DNA of 64,000 bases, taken from NCBI GenBank assembly GCA_016742095.1, contig JACVCJ010000009.1, positions 1 through 64,000 on the forward strand. The letters run 5' to 3'. How positions within the stretch are numbered: the first letter of the stretch is position 1; each line of letters starts with the position of its first letter. The translations under genes were made by a program, and so were the position numbers. The DNA comes from Bacteroidia bacterium. Its GTDB lineage: Bacteria; Bacteroidota; Bacteroidia; CAIKAF01. Below the pieces are notes generated by a model. That model ran no database searches, was not told the DNA's origin, and was given only the letters and a program-made list of their open reading frames with translations. This document shows positions 1-15,146 of the stretch, in pieces.

Positions 1-3000
1 GTATACGGCTGGTATACAGACCGTATGCCGCTCCGTCGAACGTTATTTGCAGTACGGCGCCGTTCCATACGGGTTGCCAGTTAAAGGAGGCCTTTCCGCA
101 ATGTATGCCCAGCGGACCGTACAGGGTCTCCGTACCGTTAAAGTCTACCTGGCGCAGGCGCACGTAATGCATATCTGCCTGCGGCAGTTCAAAACTGTAG
201 CTGTTCAGTTCGTTTGAATTCCCGGCGCCGCTTACCGTACCGGCTTTTTCGAACGCATACGGTGTACGGCCCTCTTCGATCTCGAAATAGGCGTTATTTA
301 CCTCGCTGTAGGTACTCCAAACCAGACGGGCTTTTCCGTCCTGGCCGCAGATCACTTCCATATCGCCCATAGAGACCGGTAGCGGGTTCGGAATACCGCC
401 GCTGAAACCCCAGTTGCTCCATCCGGAGGCACCGGTACGCTGTAACACGGGACGACTTAGCGTGCCCTGCGGCTGCTGATGCGCACCGCTTTCCTGCCAG
501 GGCCCGCCGCCGGTACGTTTCAGTGCCGTAAGTTCGCACAGGGACGTGATACCACTGAAATTTTCGCCCACCAGGGTAATATCATAGCTGCCACCGTTCA
601 GGCCGTCGTTGGCATCCATCTGCCAGTAGCCTTCGGTCTGGGTATTTTCTGCGGAGAATGCCGCGCAGGAGCCGGCCACGGCAATATTCAGCGGCAGACC
701 GCTAAGGCCCATCGGTACCGGTTCAAAATGGCCGGTAAGGGAACCGCCCGTTGTCGGAGCGGCCGTGTACTCTACAGTTACAAAACGGTCGTACCCGCCT
801 ACACCAAAGGGGAACAGGCCGCTGGCAGCACCGCTGTTGGTACCGTTGAACCAGCGTTTCATGGTACCTGCCACATAACCGTCGGTATAATTGAGTGTAC
901 CCGTCTGTGCGCTGGATATGCCCAGTTCCAGCAGGTAACTGCCGGTTACGATATCTCCCTGTATCATCTGCAGGGTACCGCTGATCTGGCGCGACATTTC
1001 CAGGCTGAGTGTCAGCGAGGCATTGTCCAGTTCGGTGATCACCCTGCCGGAAACCGGGCTGGGCATACCGTTGCCGGGTACCTGGGCCGATTTTCCTATA
1101 AAATGATAGATAGCGCCGGCATTGAACGTCCGGGCGTCCGTCTGCACATTCCCGGAAAGGGCAGCTCCGCTGCGCAGGGCGCCTCCGTTGTGGTCCGACG
1201 TTATTTTGATCGTACCGCCGCTCTCCACCGCAAAGGCCGTGGTATTGGCCGCGCTTATCTCGGTTATGTTCAGCGGTGTATTGGCCGCGCTGAAATTAAA
1301 GCTGAAAACACCGCCCGATCTCACGGTCAGATCGCTGTTATTGCCCAGGCGCAGGTCCTGGTTTATCAGTTGTACGCTGGCCCCGCTGAGCACTTCCATC
1401 TTCAGGCCGCTCATGGCTACGGTGTTTTTTACGTCGATATTCTGCAGTACCGTACCCGAAAACTTCAGGCCGGTGGCCGTAAGGTCGGCCATGGTAATGG
1501 TACCGCCGGATAAAATGAGGTCGCCTTCCAGGTTCACCACGCAGCCGTTCGAAGAGCCGCTGGTCGGGTTCAGGTTGATGGTACCCGCATTCATTACGAT
1601 ATTCCCTTTTACGGTATGTGCCACTTCTACCACAGAAACGGCTGCAAAACGGAATTCGCCGGCCTCTACACGCAGCGTTCCGCCTATTTCCACGTCCTGG
1701 TCCGTATTCACCAGCTGTACGGCAGAAGAAGCAGAAGCATTACGGATAATGAGGTCGTTTTTCGTAAGCGGGAGAAAGGTACCGGAGAAAGGAATACTCT
1801 GTACAAAATTGAAGTTCTCGCCGGGATTGGCATTAAAGTAAAAATTACCGAACAGGTACCCGTCACTGTTGGCAGATATCTGGCTGGGATTGCGGATGAG
1901 GCGGTTGGCACTGCTGCCGGCATCCCAGTCCCAGTTACGCAGCTCCACGGTAGAACCGGCCTGGAAATCTTCGGTGCCGTCCCAGAGACCGTCGCCGTTA
2001 TCGAGTGTAGTGGAATTCAATACAACCAGGGCTCCGCTTTCTGCCCGGATCACACCGCTGCTGCTTACCGTAACCCCCGGGTTATTTACCTGCATCGTTC
2101 CACCGGATTTTACGGTGAGCGAAGCGTACGTGCAGTTGTGTGCTCCCGTAAAATTACCATTGTTCTCGATGATCATGGTGGTACCCGGAGCACCCGCCGC
2201 AAAAGCCGCATTGCTGGTTACGGTATGGCGTATGTACAGGTTGCTGGTGGTATTGGCCGCAGGCGCCGCAGAGGCGGTCCACACACCGGCAACAAAACGC
2301 TCCCAGGTGGCCGTACCCGATGAAGGCCAGGTACCATTGGAGGTAGTGCGGTAACTGTTGGCCGGTACTGTATTGATATCAAACGTTGTGCTGGTAGCGG
2401 GAAGCAGTCCGGGAGCCGTGGCCTGCAGGGTAAAACCCGTTCCGGAAACGGTATGCACGATACTGCCGAAGCTGGCCAGTCCCGAAGCGGCCGAAGCGCT
2501 CAGCGGCGTACCCGTCATGGTACCGGTTGAGGTAATGCTTACCGCGGAAACATAATCCAGGTCGCGGTTACCGTTCACATCCGTGGCGCTCAGCGTCACG
2601 GCCGGACTCATAGATACATTTTCCGACGTGGTGGACGGTTGTTGTACAAAAGCCAGGCGATCGGCCGTAACTTCGATGCGGTTCCGGTTGCCGCTTGTAC
2701 TCGAAGCCGCTCCGCCCGCATTGGCCAGAGCGAATGTCGAACCCGAAGCACTGGCCGAAGCCGAACTTACCGTAAACTGTAACTGCTGGTTATCGGTAAC
2801 GGTTGTGAGAAAAGATACACGCAGCGTCAGGTCCTGGCTGCCGTTATCGGGTGCCGTAAAGCTGCTGCCGCTGAGTCCGCTGAAGCTGATGCTACTGCCC
2901 GCGATCACGGGATTGTTCGCCAGCATGGCATTTCCGTCGAAAAGAGCCGCAGAACGCAGGTTGGCGATATTGCTCACGTTAAAAGTAATGGCATTCAGAG

Positions 3001-4453
3001 TAGTTCCGTAGGTATCGGCGTCGGAAGCAGCAGCTCCGCCGTCGCGTATCGTAAAGCGAAACACGCCTACACTACTGGAGGTATTGGTAATGGTGGCCGC
3101 CTGGTATTGCGTATAGTCGATATCGGAATTATAGCTAAACGCGGCATCTGCAATGATGTCCGAGAATGCACTGTTGGCGCCGGTACCCTGTATGGCAAAC
3201 ACGTAGGGATCTTCGTCCGCGTCGTCACTGGCGATGCTCAGGGTGGCTGTACGCAGGCCGGGGGCCGATGGCGCAAAGGTCACCTGGAACGTAGTACTGC
3301 CCGAGGCCGCTATGGGTGTGGAAGGAATGGCCGTAAGGGAAAAATCGGCCGCATTGGCGCCGCTTATTGTTACGTAAGGCGATACACCCGTCAGGTTCAG
3401 TGTTGCCAGTCCCTGGTTCTGAATGGTAAAGGTATGCGTTACACTGCCCGAAAGTACCAGTGCCGGACCGAAATCGGTGTCGTCCAATGTGGAAGGGCTA
3501 AGATCGTTATGGACGATGGAAACCGAGTTGCCCGTAAGGTTGATCTCCGGGGCCGGAACGCTGCCGGTACCCTGTATGGCGAACACATAGGGATCTTCGT
3601 CGGGATCATCACTGGCAATGCTGATGCTGGCCGTGCGTGTACCTGCGGCAGAAGGATCGAAGCTAACCTGGAAAGTGGTACTACCCGAGGCGGCCACAGG
3701 CGTAGAAGGAATGGCCGTGACCGTAAAATCGGCCGCGTTGGCGCCGCTGATGCTCACGTAAGGCGATGCAGCACTAAGCGTGAGCGGCCCGCTGCCTGTA
3801 TTCTGTATGGTGAAAGTGCGTGTTACCGTACCGCCGGCCACGGGTGTGGAACCGAAATCGGTATGGTCTGCCGCAGAAGGGATCAGGTCGTTATTGGCGA
3901 TGGAAGTACCGTTGCCGGTGATATCGATCTCGGGGTTGAGGGCTGCGGTATAGGATGTCCATTGAATATTGTCTACGATCACCTGTGATGAACCGGTGCT
4001 TCTGATCTCAAGCTGAACGCTCCCCGAAATATTCAGAACCGAGGAATACGTAACCACCGTATTTGAAGTAGGACTCACTGTGATAGATGTTCCGATCTGA
4101 CCGCCGTTTACCCATACTTCAAGCGAACGGCCACCCGTTGCGGTAAAGCCGCGTACATAATCGAAAGTAAGAGTTCCCATTCCTCCGCTGTATGTAGGTG
4201 AAGTAACCGTACGTGTCGTACCGGAATTACCGAAACATATAGCTTTTCCCGTAAGCGTCTGGTCTGTACGGGCGCCTTGTGCCGTCCATACAACACCGTC
4301 CGTACCGGTCCATGTCCGTGCCTGGTATGAACCCGAACTTGCAGTAGGCAGATTATTGAAATTTTCCTGTCCCTGTCCCCATGTAAATGTTATTCCGGAT
4401 AATACAAGGGTAATAATGAGCAACAACGCCCGCAGGTGATATCCTGTATGCAT
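1..4453 (-). CDS. Large secreted protein (3' end outside window) with signal peptide, two choice-of-anchor-D/HYDIN-like Ig repeats and beta-helix-like region; probable T9SS substrate/adhesin
   Basis: My translation of the - strand from ATG at 4453 (MHTGYHLRALLLIITLVLSGITFTWGQ...) stays open to the window edge; tandem repeats '...TDFG..TFTIQN.G...SPYV.ISGANAADF..TAIPSTP.AASGSTTFQV.F.PSA.G.RTA..SIASDD.DEDPYVFAIQGTG'. Not in ORF track because no stop in window. Confidence 0.85.
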   Translation of the reverse strand, partial: MHTGYHLRALLLIITLVLSGITFTWGQGQENFNNLPTASSGSYQARTWTGTDGVVWTAQGARTDQTLTGKAICFGNSGTTRTVTSPTYSGGMGTLTFDYVRGFTATGGRSLEVWVNGGQIGTSITVSPTSNTVVTYSSVLNISGSVQLEIRSTGSSQVIVDNIQWTSYTAALNPEIDITGNGTSIANNDLIPSAADHTDFGSTPVAGGTVTRTFTIQNTGSGPLTLSAASPYVSISGANAADFTVTAIPSTPVAASGSTTFQVSFDPSAAGTRTASISIASDDPDEDPYVFAIQGTGSVPAPEINLTGNSVSIVHNDLSPSTLDDTDFGPALVLSGSVTHTFTIQNQGLATLNLTGVSPYVTISGANAADFSLTAIPSTPIAASGSTTFQVTFAPSAPGLRTATLSIASDDADEDPYVFAIQGTGANSAFSDIIADAAFSYNSDIDYTQYQAATITNTSSSVGVFRFTIRDGGAAASDADTYGTTLNAITFNVSNIANLRSAALFDGNAMLANNPVIAGSSISFSGLSGSSFTAPDNGSQDLTLRVSFLTTVTDNQQLQFTVSSASASASGSTFALANAGGAASSTSGNRNRIEVTADRLAFVQQPSTTSENVSMSPAVTLSATDVNGNRDLDYVSAVSITSTGTMTGTPLSASAASGLASFGSIVHTVSGTGFTLQATAPGLLPATSTTFDINTVPANSYRTTSNGTWPSSGTATWERFVAGVWTASAAPAANTTSNLYIRHTVTSNAAFAAGAPGTTMIIENNGNFTGAHNCTYASLTVKSGGTMQVNNPGVTVSSSGVIRAESGALVVLNSTTLDNGDGLWDGTEDFQAGSTVELRNWDWDAGSSANRLIRNPSQISANSDGYLFGNFYFNANPGENFNFVQSIPFSGTFLPLTKNDLIIRNASASSAVQLVNTDQDVEIGGTLRVEAGEFRFAAVSVVEVAHTVKGNIVMNAGTINLNPTSGSSNGCVVNLEGDLILSGGTITMADLTATGLKFSGTVLQNIDVKNTVAMSGLKMEVLSGASVQLINQDLRLGNNSDLTVRSGGVFSFNFSAANTPLNITEISAANTTAFAVESGGTIKITSDHNGGALRSGAALSGNVQTDARTFNAGAIYHFIGKSAQVPGNGMPSPVSGRVITELDNASLTLSLEMSRQISGTLQMIQGDIVTGSYLLELGISSAQTGTLNYTDGYVAGTMKRWFNGTNSGAASGLFPFGVGGYDRFVTVEYTAAPTTGGSLTGHFEPVPMGLSGLPLNIAVAGSCAAFSAENTQTEGYWQMDANDGLNGGSYDITLVGENFSGITSLCELTALKRTGGGPWQESGAHQQPQGTLSRPVLQRTGASGWSNWGFSGGIPNPLPVSMGDMEVICGQDGKARLVWSTYSEVNNAYFEIEEGRTPYAFEKAGTVSGAGNSNELNSYSFELPQADMHYVRLRQVDFNGTETLYGPLGIHCGKASFNWQPVWNGAVLQITFDGAAYGLYTSRI

Positions 4454-4666
4454 GTGGTGATAGAATGATTTAGGTATTTCCGGTTGCAAAGAAACAACCA
4501 ACTTTGTGATTGCAAAAGTTCCCGCGTCGAAAAAGCAACTTTTTTTTCACCGAAATTTAACCTGTTTGTGACGACGTTTTTTATACACGTAATTACATAT
4601 AAAGTTAATTTTCATTCATTTTCCTTTTACGTTAGCCTTTTCTTACTGAATTTGTATCTTTATACC

Positions 4667-5831: not shown

Positions 5832-7889
5832 CTATTTCTTTACCAGAAATTTCTTCGCCACTTTACCACCGTCAAAATCCAGTTCGAGGGTATATAAACC
5901 GTCGGCAAACGATTGGATGTTCAGCGTTTCGGTGTGTTCGGCACTGCCGTTCCATACCGCCGTACGCACCACGCGGCCCGATACGTCCAGTATACGCATG
6001 CGGATCTCGCCGGCCTGTACGGCACTTACTTTAATGTTCAGCAGGTCCGAAGCCGGGTTCGGGAATATCTCTGCCTGCAGGGCCTTGTTGTATTCCGTTA
6101 CCGAAGCATAGGGCGAAATAAGGCAGTTGCCTGTAATGTTCTTCAGCGTGGCCTCGTATTTCGAATTTACAATGTCCACAATGGTATCTATGCATATCTG
6201 CTCGGCGGTAATATTGTTAAAGAAGAGGCGCACCAGGGGCTGCAGTACGGCCGAGGTGTCCAGCTTCATTTCCTGGTACGACATACCGATCACTTCCGTG
6301 CCGTTCACCTGGAACTGCGGTGTAATATTGTACTGCAGCGGGTTGGCCAGGTTCTGGGCCGATTGTATCTCGATGCCGCTCACCCGGAACTGGTAGGCCA
6401 GCACACTGTGGGTGGCATTTTTTATGCCGATATCGATGTACTGCTGGTTCCAGTTGTAACCGATGATCGAAAGCTCGCTGGTCTGCTGGTTATTGGTGAT
6501 ACCGAAAGGCCAGTCGCAGGGATTATTGATGGGATGCTCGTTCAGGGAACAGTTATTGATCAGGGCCGCATCGTGTACGGTCCAGGTACCGTCGGCGTCC
6601 ATATCGTTACAGATCACCTGCTGCAGGTTGCCGGAGATCAGGTTCTGGTTGTACAGCGAGGCATCGCTCTGGTCCAGGGCCAGGTCGCTGTTCATATCGC
6701 CGCGTACGGCGGTACCGTTACAAACGCCGTTACAGTCGGTCTGTGCATTACCGAACTGTACACCCATGCAGTCTACCACCGGTGTACAGCCCTGCACCAG
6801 GCTGAAGGACGGAATGCCCTGTGCGTCGCGCGCCAGGCGTATACAAACCGAGGCAAAGTTGTTATCGTAGGTGGTTTCGTACTTGCCGGTATAATCGGGG
6901 CTGTGGTCCCAGTTCACCTTTACCACGAGGTGATAGGTACCGGTGTCCACATCGGTAATATCCACCCACTGGCAGTCAAGACCGGCGCCGTAAATATCGC
7001 CGCAGCCGTGCGAAATGCCCATGTTTCCGCAGCCGTACTGCGAGGAGCCGCCACCGCTGCATTCCAGGTCCATTACACAGAAACCGTTCTTAAAACCGAT
7101 GGGGATCTCATTCCCGTTCAGGTCATACAGCTCGTATTTGGCATAACCCACGTAGTGTGCATGCTGGTGACAGTTCACATAGTCGAACTGGGGGTTCGAG
7201 GGATTTGCCTGCCCGATGTAATAATCGGCATTCCCCACATTTTTGATATGCGTGGTAAAACGAATGATGTCGCGGAGTCCGTACCCGTTCAGACAGCCTT
7301 CTTCCACGGAGCACTGGTCGGCATTGCGGGTGTCCATGCTCAGCGAACTTTCCATGGCGCTCTGCACTACGGTAAGATCGGGCGTGGGGCACAGCGGGCT
7401 GGGCGCATACACGCAGGAACCGTTATCTATCGTAGCTTCGGGGTTATAGTTACAGGCATTCGGGTCTGTACAACCTGATATCTGCCCGATGTACTGGAGG
7501 GTCCAGTTAATGGTCTGCCCGTTGCACTGGTTGTTGTAATCGTCGATACGGATATAATAGGTGGTACCCGGCTGCAGAATCCCCTGTACCTCGCTCTGCA
7601 GGCTGCAGGCATCGTCGTTGTAAAGTACGGTGGCCAGGTTGTTCTCGGTAGGGTTCAGTCCCACACAATAATCGTACACATAAATTTTGGTATCGCAGGA
7701 ACTCTGCTGGCAGGTGTATATCCGGTAAATTCCCGGCTGCGTGGGCACAAAGGTGTACCAGCTGTTGGGTTGCGGGGCGGTGTAGCTGCCCGGCGTTACC
7801 GGCGTGGCGTTACTGCAGGATGTACCCTGCGCCATTGCCCCGTATGCCGCAGAGAACAGCATAAGGAAAAGGAGTACGGTTCTTCTCAT
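5832..7889 (-). CDS. T9SS type A sorting-domain protein with lysyl-oxidase-like domain and dockerin-like repeats
   Basis: CHQHAH, FKNGFC..., GDIYGAGLDCQWVDITDV motifs resemble lysyl oxidase; 'GDMNSDLALDQSDASLYNQ'/'NDMDADGTWTVHDAALI' dockerin-like; C-term 'FPNPASDLLNIKV...GLYTLELDFDGGKVAKKFLVKK' T9SS domain. Start ATG 7889 (MRRTVLLFLMLFSAAYGAMAQ signal peptide); track start 7916 overlaps a TAnnTTTG element. Confidence 0.85.
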   Translation of the reverse strand: MRRTVLLFLMLFSAAYGAMAQGTSCSNATPVTPGSYTAPQPNSWYTFVPTQPGIYRIYTCQQSSCDTKIYVYDYCVGLNPTENNLATVLYNDDACSLQSEVQGILQPGTTYYIRIDDYNNQCNGQTINWTLQYIGQISGCTDPNACNYNPEATIDNGSCVYAPSPLCPTPDLTVVQSAMESSLSMDTRNADQCSVEEGCLNGYGLRDIIRFTTHIKNVGNADYYIGQANPSNPQFDYVNCHQHAHYVGYAKYELYDLNGNEIPIGFKNGFCVMDLECSGGGSSQYGCGNMGISHGCGDIYGAGLDCQWVDITDVDTGTYHLVVKVNWDHSPDYTGKYETTYDNNFASVCIRLARDAQGIPSFSLVQGCTPVVDCMGVQFGNAQTDCNGVCNGTAVRGDMNSDLALDQSDASLYNQNLISGNLQQVICNDMDADGTWTVHDAALINNCSLNEHPINNPCDWPFGITNNQQTSELSIIGYNWNQQYIDIGIKNATHSVLAYQFRVSGIEIQSAQNLANPLQYNITPQFQVNGTEVIGMSYQEMKLDTSAVLQPLVRLFFNNITAEQICIDTIVDIVNSKYEATLKNITGNCLISPYASVTEYNKALQAEIFPNPASDLLNIKVSAVQAGEIRMRILDVSGRVVRTAVWNGSAEHTETLNIQSFADGLYTLELDFDGGKVAKKFLVKK

Positions 7890-10839: not shown

Positions 10840-11784
10840 TTAAAACCGATGTATTACCTCTATATTGAACTCTTTCAGTTCGGCGCGGGCCTTTTCCAGG
10901 TCCGGGGCAAAGCCCAGCAGGTAACCGCCGCCGCCGCTTCCGCAGAGTTTCAGGTAGTAACTTTCACTTTCCAGACCCTGTTTCCATACTTTACGGAACT
11001 TTTTGGGGATCATCGGGTCCAGGTGGGCGATCAGGAAGTGCGAGAGCTCTTTTACGTTGCTCAGCAGGTCTTTGGCCTCGCCTTTCAGGAACGCTTTAAT
11101 ACAGTTATCGTTGAAAGGGATCATTTCCTTGCGCACCAGGCCCAGGAAACCGTCTTCCTTGCATTTATCGAGGAACAGCTGCACCAGCGGACCGGTTTTT
11201 CCCACCTGTTTGGTATCGATAAGGAATATGCCGCCGTTGCCGGTCTTTACGCTCTCGGGGATCTGTACCGCACCGATGGCCTCCTTGTTCTCGATGAGCA
11301 GGGGGTGCTGCAGGTAACAGATAAGCGGGTCCAGACCACTGCTGGTGCCGTGGAAATAACATTCCATTTTTGCAAACTGGGCTTTCAGTTTCAGTATATC
11401 GTCCGTGCCCGGTTTTTCTTCGTTGTACACTTTATCAAAGGCATAACGCTCGTACAGGGCCGCCACCAGGGCGCCGCTGCTGCCTACACCGTAGCCCTGC
11501 GGAATGGTACTGTCGAAGATCAGGCCCTTTTCAATATCGGCGTTCAGCGCCTCAATATCGAAGGTAAAACCCAGCTCTTTCTTTTCTACCAGCCCCTGCA
11601 GGTATGCCGCGTACTTTTTCAGATCGGCATTGCTCTGTTTTGCCTCTTCCTCAGACAGGTTACGGCTTTTGAACGTAAGCTTGCCCTTGTAGAAATCAAA
11701 GGGAATAGTGAGCCCCATCGAGTTATGAATGATGCTGTACTCACCAAACAACAAAATCTTTGATTTGAAGTTTTTGTTTGCCAT
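10840..11784 (-). CDS. mvk: Mevalonate kinase (GHMP kinase)
   Basis: 'LLFGEYSIIH', 'GYGVGSSGALVAALY', 'FHGTSSGLDPLI', 'KLCGSGGGGYLLGF' GHMP motifs; operon context. Confidence 0.85.
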   Translation of the reverse strand: MANKNFKSKILLFGEYSIIHNSMGLTIPFDFYKGKLTFKSRNLSEEEAKQSNADLKKYAAYLQGLVEKKELGFTFDIEALNADIEKGLIFDSTIPQGYGVGSSGALVAALYERYAFDKVYNEEKPGTDDILKLKAQFAKMECYFHGTSSGLDPLICYLQHPLLIENKEAIGAVQIPESVKTGNGGIFLIDTKQVGKTGPLVQLFLDKCKEDGFLGLVRKEMIPFNDNCIKAFLKGEAKDLLSNVKELSHFLIAHLDPMIPKKFRKVWKQGLESESYYLKLCGSGGGGYLLGFAPDLEKARAELKEFNIEVIHRF

Positions 11785-11790
11785 TTCGGG

Positions 11791-12873
11791 TTATTTCAGT
11801 TTTACCGGGCCATTCCCTTCTTTATCAAAGATAATGGAATTTCCGGGTAAATGTTTAGCTATTTCGTTATTCAGGAATGTGTGCACCTTCTCCTTCTCGC
11901 TTTCGGGGTAGATCAGGTGTATGTTCGGACCGGCGTCCAGCGTAAAACACATGCGTATTCCGTGCTGTTCGCGGTACTGTTTCATGATATCGAGCAGTTC
12001 CAGGGTCTTGGGCTTCATCAGGATGAACCAGGGATAGCTCATCATCATCATGCCGTGCAGGGTAAGGGCCTCGTTCTCTACCAGTTCGGCAAAACGGTTG
12101 AAGTCGCCTTCGCCGATGGCCTGTAACAGGGCGTCCATGTTCTCACGGGCATGCTCAAAACGGCGTGTGGCGTAGGGATTGGTCTTCATCAGTCCGTGGC
12201 CGGCACGTGAACTTACGCTCTTTTCGCCGCGGTCGCAGATAATGATGGAATCCTGCAGGTTCTGAAAGTCGGGATGTACCTGACCTTCGTACTTGCTGGC
12301 AAACAGGTCCGATGTTTCGGGCAGGGCATCGATGGCCCCCCAGCTTACCAGTCCGCCGTATACGGAACGGCTGGCGCTGCCACTGGCCAGGCGCGAAAGA
12401 ACGCTGGCTTCGCGGTAAAAAGAGGCATCGTCGGTATGCAGGCCGAACACGCGGCGCTCCATTTCTACCAGGCACATGCAGAAAGCACTCATGCCGCTTG
12501 CCGAAGAGGCAATACCGGCCGAATGCGGGAACGTATTCTCTGATCCCAGGCGGAAACGCATGCCCGACAGGTAAGGACGCTGGGGCAGCTGACTTTCCAG
12601 GAACTTTTTGATCTTGTTGCCGAACGCTTCATTGGCCTTTCCTTCGAAATAAAATTCTACTTCGGGACCGTTCTCCGCTGCCGACCATTCCATCTCCGTT
12701 TTGGTATGGCATGCCGAAAGCGTAATGCTGATCGATGGATTGGCAGGGATCTGGTTATCGTATTTTCCCCAGTATTTGACCAGGGCAATGTTCGACGGAC
12801 TGGTCCATGCCGTGTGGCCGTTCGCAAATTCAGCCGGAAGGGTTTCCGGGTATGTTTGTGTTTGTGCGTTCAT
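11791..12873 (-). CDS. mvaD: Diphosphomevalonate decarboxylase
   Basis: 'TSPSNIALVKYWGKYD...PANPSISITL', 'FPHSAGIASSASGMSA', 'CFTLDAGPNIHLIYP'. Confidence 0.92.
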   Translation of the reverse strand: MNAQTQTYPETLPAEFANGHTAWTSPSNIALVKYWGKYDNQIPANPSISITLSACHTKTEMEWSAAENGPEVEFYFEGKANEAFGNKIKKFLESQLPQRPYLSGMRFRLGSENTFPHSAGIASSASGMSAFCMCLVEMERRVFGLHTDDASFYREASVLSRLASGSASRSVYGGLVSWGAIDALPETSDLFASKYEGQVHPDFQNLQDSIIICDRGEKSVSSRAGHGLMKTNPYATRRFEHARENMDALLQAIGEGDFNRFAELVENEALTLHGMMMMSYPWFILMKPKTLELLDIMKQYREQHGIRMCFTLDAGPNIHLIYPESEKEKVHTFLNNEIAKHLPGNSIIFDKEGNGPVKLK

Positions 12874-12875
12874 GA

Positions 12876-13787
12876 TTAATCTCGCAATAAGACGTTTGAA
12901 TACCCTAAAATTGTTACAAAACCCTTGTCAAAAAAATACTTCCTGGTCACTTTCTCCTCATTTTCAGACACTACCATTACAAAATCTCCGCCCCAGGCAC
13001 CCATACTTTTTACGGCGCCGGCAAAATCGGGGAAGTATTTCTGCTGTACGGTCTGTGTCTGCAGTATACGGCTCATGATCTGCTCGTGCTCCTTCATAAA
13101 GCCGGCCAGTTCGCGGGGAGTAGCCGCCGTGCAGAAGTCCGCTGCCAGTTCGCTGATGCGCTGTACGTCGGCGTCGCTGATCACGGCCTCTTTAAAGAAT
13201 TTCTTTACTTCGGCCGAACTGTTCTGCTTGTTGCCCAGGTACACAAAAAAGATCTGTTCCTTGAACGGCGGGTCGAAGGGCGCGGGTTCCACGAGGGGCG
13301 TTCCTTCCCGGCGGGTAAAGAACAGCGGCCCCGAAGCAATGGCGCAGGCCAGATCATAACCACTGCCGCCAAAGGTATCGGCCAGCAGCTGATAGGGATC
13401 TACTTCAGCATATTCTGCCAGCAGGGCCAGCAGGGTGCTGCTGGTGCCCAGTCCCCAGTCCCGGTCAAAATCGGTATCGAAACGGAATTCTTTCCCCCTG
13501 AATTTACTTACTACTTCCGGGCGCTGACGCAGTATGGAGGCCATAATTTCGTCGAGGCGGTCGCCGATGGCCGGCAGGTTGGTGGCCGTAACGCATATGC
13601 TGCTGTCCAGTGTAGCCTCGAACCAGGCATTGCCTTTTTCGGCGCTGTACCAGCGGCAGCCTTCATAGGCAATATCGCTTACCTGCATACGCTGCCCGTA
13701 TCTCAGGGGCAGGGCCAGGGCTCTGGCGCCTTTCAGCACCATGTATTCGCCGCTGAGTAAAAATTTGCCGTGGGCGCGGTATTCCAT
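12876..13787 (-). CDS. GHMP kinase, GYDIA-like family (function uncertain; candidate phosphomevalonate kinase)
   Basis: 'GKFLLSGEYMVLKGARALALPL', 'DWGLGTSSTLLALLA', 'GGSGYDLACA'; 2-3 nt spacing in operon. Confidence 0.8.
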   Translation of the reverse strand: MEYRAHGKFLLSGEYMVLKGARALALPLRYGQRMQVSDIAYEGCRWYSAEKGNAWFEATLDSSICVTATNLPAIGDRLDEIMASILRQRPEVVSKFRGKEFRFDTDFDRDWGLGTSSTLLALLAEYAEVDPYQLLADTFGGSGYDLACAIASGPLFFTRREGTPLVEPAPFDPPFKEQIFFVYLGNKQNSSAEVKKFFKEAVISDADVQRISELAADFCTAATPRELAGFMKEHEQIMSRILQTQTVQQKYFPDFAGAVKSMGAWGGDFVMVVSENEEKVTRKYFFDKGFVTILGYSNVLLRD

Positions 13788-13790
13788 CAG

Positions 13791-15146
13791 CTATCCGTGG
13801 TTGAGAATATTTTCGCGGTAGGCGATCAGGAAACTGCGTACCGAATTGAATGACACTTTATTATGCTTAAAATACTCCACGGCGTCCACTTTTTCGGTCT
13901 CGCTGGCCTCAAAATGGTTCAGGATATTCAGCAGGTGCATTTTCATATGTCCTTTCTGAATACCGCTGGTGGTAAGCGAGTGCAGGGCGCCGAAGTTATT
14001 GGCCAGACCGGCGGTGGCCGCAATCATCATCAGCTCGCGGGCATCGGGATTGCCCAGCATTTCGATGGAACGGCGCGCCATCGGGTGCAGGGCCGTCAGT
14101 CCGCCCACCACGCCCAGGGCCATCGGCACTTCCAGCACGTATTTAAACGTATTGTTACTGAGATCGATATAGGTAAGCGACGAGTATTTGCCGCTGCGCG
14201 AAGCATAGGTATGCCCGGCCGCTTCCACCGCACGGAAATCGTTACCGGTGGCCAGCACCAGGGAGTCGATACCGTTGTAGATGCCTTTGTTGTGGGTGGT
14301 GGCACGGTAGGTGTCCACGGTGGCCACTTTCACGGCCATGGCAAACTTGCGGGCAAATTCATCGGCGGTAATTTTACCGTCCTCAAAGCTTCCCAGCTCT
14401 TCAATGGGACATTCCACCCATACGCGCACCAGGCAGTCGGGCGTGTAATTGCTCAGGATGCTCATGATCACGTCCGCCTGTTTTTCGCTGCCGCTGAAAT
14501 CTTCGCGGTCTTCGCAGAAATTACGCAGGATGGAAGCAAACTCTTCCAGGCAGGAGTTGATGAAATTGGCGCCCATGCTGTCGCAGGTCTCAAAAGAGGC
14601 CTTCAGCTGGTAATAACCGGGCTCGTAAGCGGTCATGTCCACCAGTTCCACATCCAGTATGCCACCGCCGCGTTTTTGCATGTTGGCGGTAATGTGCTGC
14701 GTCTGCTCCATGAGTTCGGCCTTCAGGGCCGGGAATGCATCGATCAGCTTTTGTTTATCGCCGTTCCAGATAAAATGTACCTGGCCCAGTTTACGGGTAT
14801 CCACGATCTCGGCATGGAATCCGCCGCGGGTACTCCAGAATTTGGCGCTTTTGGAAGCGGCCGCCACTACGCTGCTCTCCTCGATCACCATGGGCATCAT
14901 GTAACTTTTGCCGTTAATGATCACATTGGGCACTACACCGTAGGGGAAATAATAGTTGGTGATGGTATTCTCGGAGAATTCATCAAAAATTTTCTGCCTG
15001 GCGGCATCGGGATGGTTAAAAGAGTTCATTTCTGCTTCCACCCGGGCTGCATCCGGAAAAATAGAGGCCGTAGCCTTCAGTTTTTCAGCCTTGCTCAACT
15101 TCGAAAACCCGTTGGCAATGCGGCTTATATCATTTGTATCCGTCAT
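13791..15146 (-). CDS. mvaA: Hydroxymethylglutaryl-CoA reductase
   Basis: 'SFETCDSMGANFINSCLEEFA', 'GIQKGHMKMHL' HMG-CoA reductase motifs. Confidence 0.92.
   Translation of the reverse strand: MTDTNDISRIANGFSKLSKAEKLKATASIFPDAARVEAEMNSFNHPDAARQKIFDEFSENTITNYYFPYGVVPNVIINGKSYMMPMVIEESSVVAAASKSAKFWSTRGGFHAEIVDTRKLGQVHFIWNGDKQKLIDAFPALKAELMEQTQHITANMQKRGGGILDVELVDMTAYEPGYYQLKASFETCDSMGANFINSCLEEFASILRNFCEDREDFSGSEKQADVIMSILSNYTPDCLVRVWVECPIEELGSFEDGKITADEFARKFAMAVKVATVDTYRATTHNKGIYNGIDSLVLATGNDFRAVEAAGHTYASRSGKYSSLTYIDLSNNTFKYVLEVPMALGVVGGLTALHPMARRSIEMLGNPDARELMMIAATAGLANNFGALHSLTTSGIQKGHMKMHLLNILNHFEASETEKVDAVEYFKHNKVSFNSVRSFLIAYRENILNHG

Follow-up and report, generated by a model that had tools for sequence, protein, structure and literature searches.

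In animals, the copper enzyme lysyl oxidase (LOX) cross-links collagen and elastin, and LOX chemistry is known above all as a distinctive trait of the animal extracellular matrix. LOX homologues are also known outside animals, as the first-pass annotation of the DNA considered here had noted, and both bacterial and archaeal LOX have been reported (PMC4448552, PMC6452851). Prokaryotic LOX have been described as mostly single-domain proteins, and those of Bacteroidetes conserve the three His, the Lys and the Tyr and lack the equivalent of human H289 (Grau-Bove et al. 2015, PMC4448552). HTU-LOX, from the archaeon Haloterrigena turkmenica, is an active Cu-dependent, BAPN-sensitive amine oxidase with a broad range of substrates, which include taurine, glycine, aminoglycosides and polymyxin (PMC6452851). 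A plasmid of Gemmatirosa kalamazoonensis encodes a further bacterial LOX domain (L113), in which a CHQHFH motif and the Lys and Tyr motifs can be recognized.

The LOX reported here is encoded by a Flavobacteriales-type genome, in a stretch of 64,000 nucleotides that we call the window. It shares with HTU-LOX the condition of a prokaryotic LOX, whereas the archaeal enzyme starts with a hydrophobic signal peptide and lacks a T9SS, and its host function has been called cryptic (PMC6452851). The Gemmatirosa LOX also presents the His, Lys and Tyr motifs, but it is 28% identical to the window's domain, and a T9SS tail was not seen in its ORF. Different from the mostly single-domain prokaryotic LOX of Grau-Bove et al. 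(2015), the window's LOX is a conserved multidomain protein and a predicted T9SS cargo. We found no description of a T9SS-exported LOX in the open-access papers searched, which do not stand for the whole literature; among them, lysyl oxidase and T9SS were mentioned together only in a review on Porphyromonas and oral cancer, and lysyl oxidase and dockerin only in two works that are unrelated to judge by their titles. Bacterial LOX as such is already known; the form with predicted T9SS export to the surface is widespread in one bacterial group.

The gene is an uninterrupted ORF on the minus strand (5832-7889) with an ATG start, coding for 685 residues that begin with MRRTVLLFLMLFSAAYGAMAQ. The order of the domains is signal peptide, beta-sandwich, GCTDPxACNYNP Cys motif, LOX, Cys-rich linker, dockerin-like module, second beta-sandwich and T9SS type A tail. 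The AlphaFold model of the full protein, built with 75 relatives, has a mean pLDDT of 88.7 and a pTM of 0.69. The features are as follows.

5832..7889, minus strand: lysyl-oxidase-domain protein P0001 with predicted T9SS export, 685 aa (uninterrupted ORF; ATG then signal peptide; PF01186; T9SS tail; mean pLDDT of the model as given above)
7827..7889, minus strand: Sec signal peptide, aa 1-21, MRRTVLLFLMLFSAAYGAMAQ (sequence; helix 2-13 in the model)
7482..7826, minus strand: beta-sandwich domain at the N terminus, aa 22-136 (modeled as all-beta, with pLDDT mostly 82-96)
7386..7481, minus strand: GCTDPNACNYNPEATIDNGSC cysteine/acidic motif, aa 137-168, immediately N-terminal of the LOX domain (sequence and conservation)
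6834..7385, minus strand: lysyl oxidase catalytic domain, aa 169-352 (PF01186; LOXL2 5ZE3 by sequence and fold)
7155..7172, minus strand: copper site C240-H241-Q-H243-A-H245, matching LOXL2 His626/628/630 (three His identical in 102/102 domains)
7089..7091, minus strand: LTQ lysine Lys267, matching human LOX K320 and LOXL2 K653 (conserved in 102/102; aligns with LOXL2 Lys653)
6990..6992, minus strand: LTQ tyrosine Tyr300, matching human LOX Y355 and LOXL2 Y689 (conserved in 102/102; aligns with LOXL2 Tyr689)
6540..6701, minus strand: dockerin-like module with two Ca-binding loops, aa 397-450 (loop residues, family profile, conservation)
6114..6503, minus strand: beta-sandwich between the dockerin-like module and the tail, aa 463-592 (model pLDDT ~95)
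5835..6077, minus strand: T9SS type A C-terminal sorting domain, aa 605-685 (TIGR04183, PF18962)

If the signal peptide is cut just ahead of Gln21, the site would agree with the Bacteroidetes Q-rule, which is the subject of PMC5837995. The region from residue 22 to residue 136 gave no match above cut-off in the Pfam scan; its pattern suggests a pre-peptidase-C-like domain. In the Cys motif that follows, G139, C140, C146, N147, P150, A152, C159 and C167 are invariant among 76 aligned sequences. The second beta-sandwich was matched by Foldseek to the cohesin-FN3 construct 2w1n with an rmsd of 16 A, at which the match is no more than suggestive; this modeled domain could possibly be cohesin-like.

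The assignment of the catalytic domain relies on both sequence and fold. The first-pass annotation had placed a LOX-type domain at 6825-7388, and we could confirm the peptide exactly on the minus strand, with the domain spanning aa ~170-352 (window 7382-6834). The Pfam family Lysyl_oxidase (PF01186) matches residues 176 to 350 with E=2.7e-33 and 115.8 bits (cut-off, 20.4), far beyond chance, and human LOXL2 (5ZE3) is the only LOX match among solved structures (E=1.9e-23 by sequence). Modeled alone, the domain reaches a pLDDT of 86.2 and a pTM of 0.83. Foldseek ranked 5ZE3 at the top both for the full protein (E=5.5e-14) and for the domain alone (E=7.2e-16), and the domain model shows the LOX fold, superposing on the human structure with a TM of 0.71, an rmsd of 3.3 and 31% identity over 213 columns. 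It is nearly certain that the protein belongs to the lysyl oxidase family.

The window's protein and the human enzymes LOXL2 and LOX thus have in common the fold, the Cu triad, the LTQ Lys and Tyr and eight Cys of the core disulfides, at ~31-34% identity. Different from them, it presents neither SRCR nor propeptide regions, carries a T9SS tail and a dockerin-like module, and lacks equivalents of LOXL2 His623, His637 and His652. The spacing between the LTQ Lys and Tyr also differs, since it is 33 residues here (K267/Y300), 35 in human LOX (K320/Y355; PMC4448552) and 36 in LOXL2 (K653/Y689; PMC9694262); the values of 33 and 35 had both been given correctly in the first reading of the sequence.

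For the analysis of the active site, relatives were taken from whole genomes and GTDB contigs, and 101 domains, ~50-70% identical to that of the window, were aligned with its own sequence. His241, His243, His245, Lys267, Tyr300 and nine Cys are identical in 102/102 aligned rows, a few of which are the same gene fetched twice, the window's own included, which makes the number of independent sequences somewhat lower. Of the nine invariant Cys, eight align with the LOXL2 core disulfides 573-625, 579-695, 657-673 and 663-685 (PMC9180022), and the fifth LOXL2 pair (732-746) has no certain match in the window's domain. The motifs pointed out earlier could all be read, namely, C240-H241-Q-H243-A-H245, K267 in GFKNGFC, Y300 in GDIYGAGLDC, and CQWVDITDV.

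The domain had been called apparently intact in its catalytic residues on the basis of these motifs. This holds for the Cu-binding His and for the LTQ Lys and Tyr, but not for the auxiliary His, as in our alignment LOXL2 His623, His637 and His652 correspond to V238, K251 and F266, so that the accessory His set of the animal LOX/LOXL type is not found here. These three residues are conserved in the human paralogues, and in LOXL2 the mutation of His623 or His652 leaves <50% of LTQ, while that of His637 has no significant effect (PMC9694262). Bacterial, fungal and amoebozoan LOX do not have the first accessory His (His289 in human LOX), which is dispensable according to mutational work cited by Grau-Bove et al. 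(PMC4448552). The loss of its equivalent (LOXL2 His623, Val238 here) is the normal and already described condition of bacterial LOX; the loss of His652 (Phe266 here) is not discussed in PMC4448552. As regards geometry, Lys653 and Tyr689 lie 16.6 A apart in the crystal structure of the LOXL2 precursor (PMC9694262); since this is the distance in a real precursor, a model in which His, Lys and Tyr do not converge, proposed with the first reading as a refutation, would not be decisive against LOX activity.

With two His replaced that in LOXL2 favor the formation of LTQ, the domain could also be an inactive LOX fold that now serves for binding. Loss of active-site residues does occur in related proteins. 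A second Bacteroidota LOX-like group (L020-L027, L031, L032) resembles the window's protein in its PF01186 match, its T9SS tail and, mostly, HxHxH, Lys and Tyr, and differs from it in being ~24-28% identical in the domain and in featuring Ig_7 domains where the window has the dockerin-like module. At least one member of that group (L024:340-2421, minus strand) has lost the His triad (YHGGGSLYNDEW), with the Lys and Tyr positions kept, and is a possible pseudoenzyme. However, identity of the Cu ligands, the LTQ Lys and Tyr and the core Cys throughout the alignment, at the level of divergence given above, is what would be expected under selection for catalysis, and we regard a pseudoenzyme in the window as quite improbable. 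We consider it likely that the window's LOX is an active amine oxidase.

The protein also carries signals for export. The T9SS C-terminal domain noticed in the first reading is matched over residues 608 to 684 by TIGR04183 (E=1e-11) and PF18962 (E=6.8e-15). The host genome contains 150 matches to the T9SS sorting domain, 149 of them above the curated cut-off, together with a full-length SprA (TIGR04189, 2376.9 bits), and thus the export route exists. The dockerin-like Ca-binding repeats, which had likewise been proposed, consist of the loops D398-N400-D402-D406-D409 and D429-D431-D433-T437-D440. On the single sequence, Dockerin_1 gave E=0.069, below the Pfam cut-off; the repeats are nevertheless suggested by the profile of the family, which matches the dockerin structures 1daq/2mte with E~0.006, and by the loop aspartates, as D409 and D440 are invariant and D398, D429 and D433 are at least 90% conserved in the 76 aligned sequences.

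The PF01186 match, the LOXL2 fold, the conserved Cu, LTQ and Cys residues, the T9SS tail with SprA and the existence of an active archaeal LOX (PMC6452851) lead us to read the protein as a genuine LOX-family extracellular copper/LTQ amine oxidase. We consider this reading likely, although Val238 and Phe266 in the places of His623 and His652, the negative search for a collagen-like protein in the host genome and the lack of a conserved partner beside the gene there count against it. It agrees with the earlier suggestion of a secreted amine oxidase, which homology, active-site residues and the export signal make probable. According to this reading, the signal peptide would take the protein through Sec, and in the oxidizing periplasm the four core disulfides would form and copper would bind to His241/243/245, as in the homologues. 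The T9SS tail would then direct the protein through the outer membrane, either onto the cell surface or into the medium. Lys267 and Tyr300 would self-process with copper and oxygen to give lysine tyrosylquinone, and the enzyme could oxidize primary amines, whether small amines, peptidyl lysine or both, with aldehydes, H2O2 and ammonia as products. Its dockerin-like and beta-sandwich modules probably serve to place it on a partner at the surface.

This architecture is not peculiar to the window. The host genome has one PF01186 gene. The family is present in 4 out of 396 genomes evenly sampled from the phylum and in 25 out of 100 related genomes, 17 of which carry the LOX group studied here; some of the 100 have two or three PF01186 matches. 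A scan of GTDB contigs retrieved 194 relatives of the domain, largely from Flavobacteriales metagenome-assembled genomes (MAGs). Among the 53 full-length members scanned, PF01186 was found in all and the T9SS tail in 45-46, so that the multidomain T9SS architecture is the rule in the group. The combination of domains had been supposed to be unusual; it is common in Flavobacteriales MAGs, and what stands of the supposition is that a T9SS-exported LOX was not found described. Several relatives (L051, L059, L060, L074, L047, L048, L046, L091 and L111) have no T9SS tail and end with a conserved dockerin-like C terminus, DGxVNVxDVLLVLSAFGTxC, perhaps another anchoring signal. One contig carries two LOX genes in tandem (L107:3038-5752 and L107:5802-8231). 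A near-identical domain occurs in a contig labeled Sphingomonadales (L103) and another in a contig labeled Euryarchaeota (L057), both of which look mis-binned or mislabeled. As for mobile carriage, viral contigs and phage records gave no match to the domain, and the sole plasmid match was the distant Gemmatirosa LOX.

In the window, the LOX gene has a gene for an AraC-type regulator on one side and a Pfam-less ORF on the other, after which comes a gene for a Bax1-I protein, and no conserved partner gene was found adjoining it in the host genome. Adjoining a Bax1-I gene lies a mevalonate pathway cluster (10840-15146, minus strand), with GHMP-kinase, diphosphomevalonate decarboxylase and HMG-CoA reductase domain genes and a Pfam-less ORF between the last two. 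At the other side, a large secreted repeat protein (2-4501, minus strand), with DTDFGSxPVxGGTVTRTFTIQNTG repeats, runs off the contig end and is likely a surface protein.

A different arrangement was noticed in a separate marine Flavobacteriales clade, outside of which the window's LOX falls in the tree. Here, an S46 (dipeptidyl) peptidase gene precedes the LOX gene on the same strand at 30 loci. The LOX gene is followed by a gene for a T9SS-exported LTD-CHB_HEX-CotH kinase protein (24 ORFs, all downstream and on the same strand), with gaps of -19 to +34 bp at eight loci; the pairing concerns 22 of the 69 loci with enough downstream sequence. Examples are L041 (L041:3137-5536, then L041:5562-8528), L049, L052, L053, L061 and L097, among others. 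We discarded the S46/CotH neighborhood as context for the window's locus, given that it belongs to the separate clade, and the LOX-CotH pairing is a lead, not evidence for that locus.

What the enzyme acts upon can be approached from two sides. On the one hand, it could be an active oxidase serving catabolism or chemistry other than cross-linking, which deaminates small amines, polyamines or Lys-rich peptides outside the cell; the ammonia, aldehydes and H2O2 so produced would serve in nutrition or antagonism. The relaxed specificity of the characterized prokaryotic LOX (PMC6452851) and the position of the LOX gene downstream of the S46 dipeptidyl peptidase gene in the marine clade are in favor of this hypothesis. 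So is the result of a PF01391 search, which found no collagen-like protein in the host genome, so that the animal-type substrate appears to be absent. However, a protein of this size and number of domains, dockerin-like and other binding modules among them, better suits a fixed protein partner, and the secreted CotH-kinase protein encoded by the next gene in the marine clade hints at protein modification. We regard the catabolic role as plausible, short of probable.

On the other hand, the LOX could cross-link the bacterial extracellular matrix or surface layer, by forming allysine in co-exported proteins that would then condense. The surface export signals (its own tail, the tails of the host and SprA) and the scarcity of Lys in the enzyme (17 of 685 residues) are consistent with such a role, as is the operon-like pairing with the T9SS-exported LTD-CotH protein in the marine clade, of which the host genome holds an unlinked relative (43% identity over 1000 aa). 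The CotH partner of the marine clade is, however, itself Lys poor (~1.5%), and in 100 genomes LOX and CotH show only a weak positive association (13/17 versus 32/83; p=0.006 in a Fisher test that ignores kinship). Cross-linking by the window's enzyme, which the first reading had offered beside amine oxidation, is a hypothesis that we put forward tentatively and hold to be about as plausible as the catabolic role. As regards the role in general, we lean weakly toward the modification of extracellular proteins.

A more extended proposal would be that Flavobacteriales make allysine cross-links in their own extracellular proteins through a T9SS-exported LOX, as a counterpart of animal matrix maturation, that in one marine clade this LOX is made with a secreted CotH-type kinase, and that this LOX group may count among the closest relatives that animal LOX has in bacteria. 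We consider this proposal as a whole unlikely, though worth stating. With regard to its last part, a BLAST of the window's domain gave 34% identity and 106 bits for LOXL2, 28% and 74 bits for the Gemmatimonadota LOX and 25-28% and 38-45 bits for the second Bacteroidota group, scores that support no claim on descent, the animal comparison being LOXL2 alone and the phyla few. In the tree, where LOXL2 was the only outgroup, its branch is too long for a trusted placement of animal LOX.

The group described here offers a conserved family of LOX with predicted export to the surface. As it provides a defined location, a natural set of sequences whose active sites are intact and a candidate partner in an operon, the role of a bacterial LOX becomes testable in a cultivable relative. 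Furthermore, its diverse natural domains without His623 and His652 would be useful for understanding how LTQ forms, and the group is worth including in any new study of where animal LOX came from.
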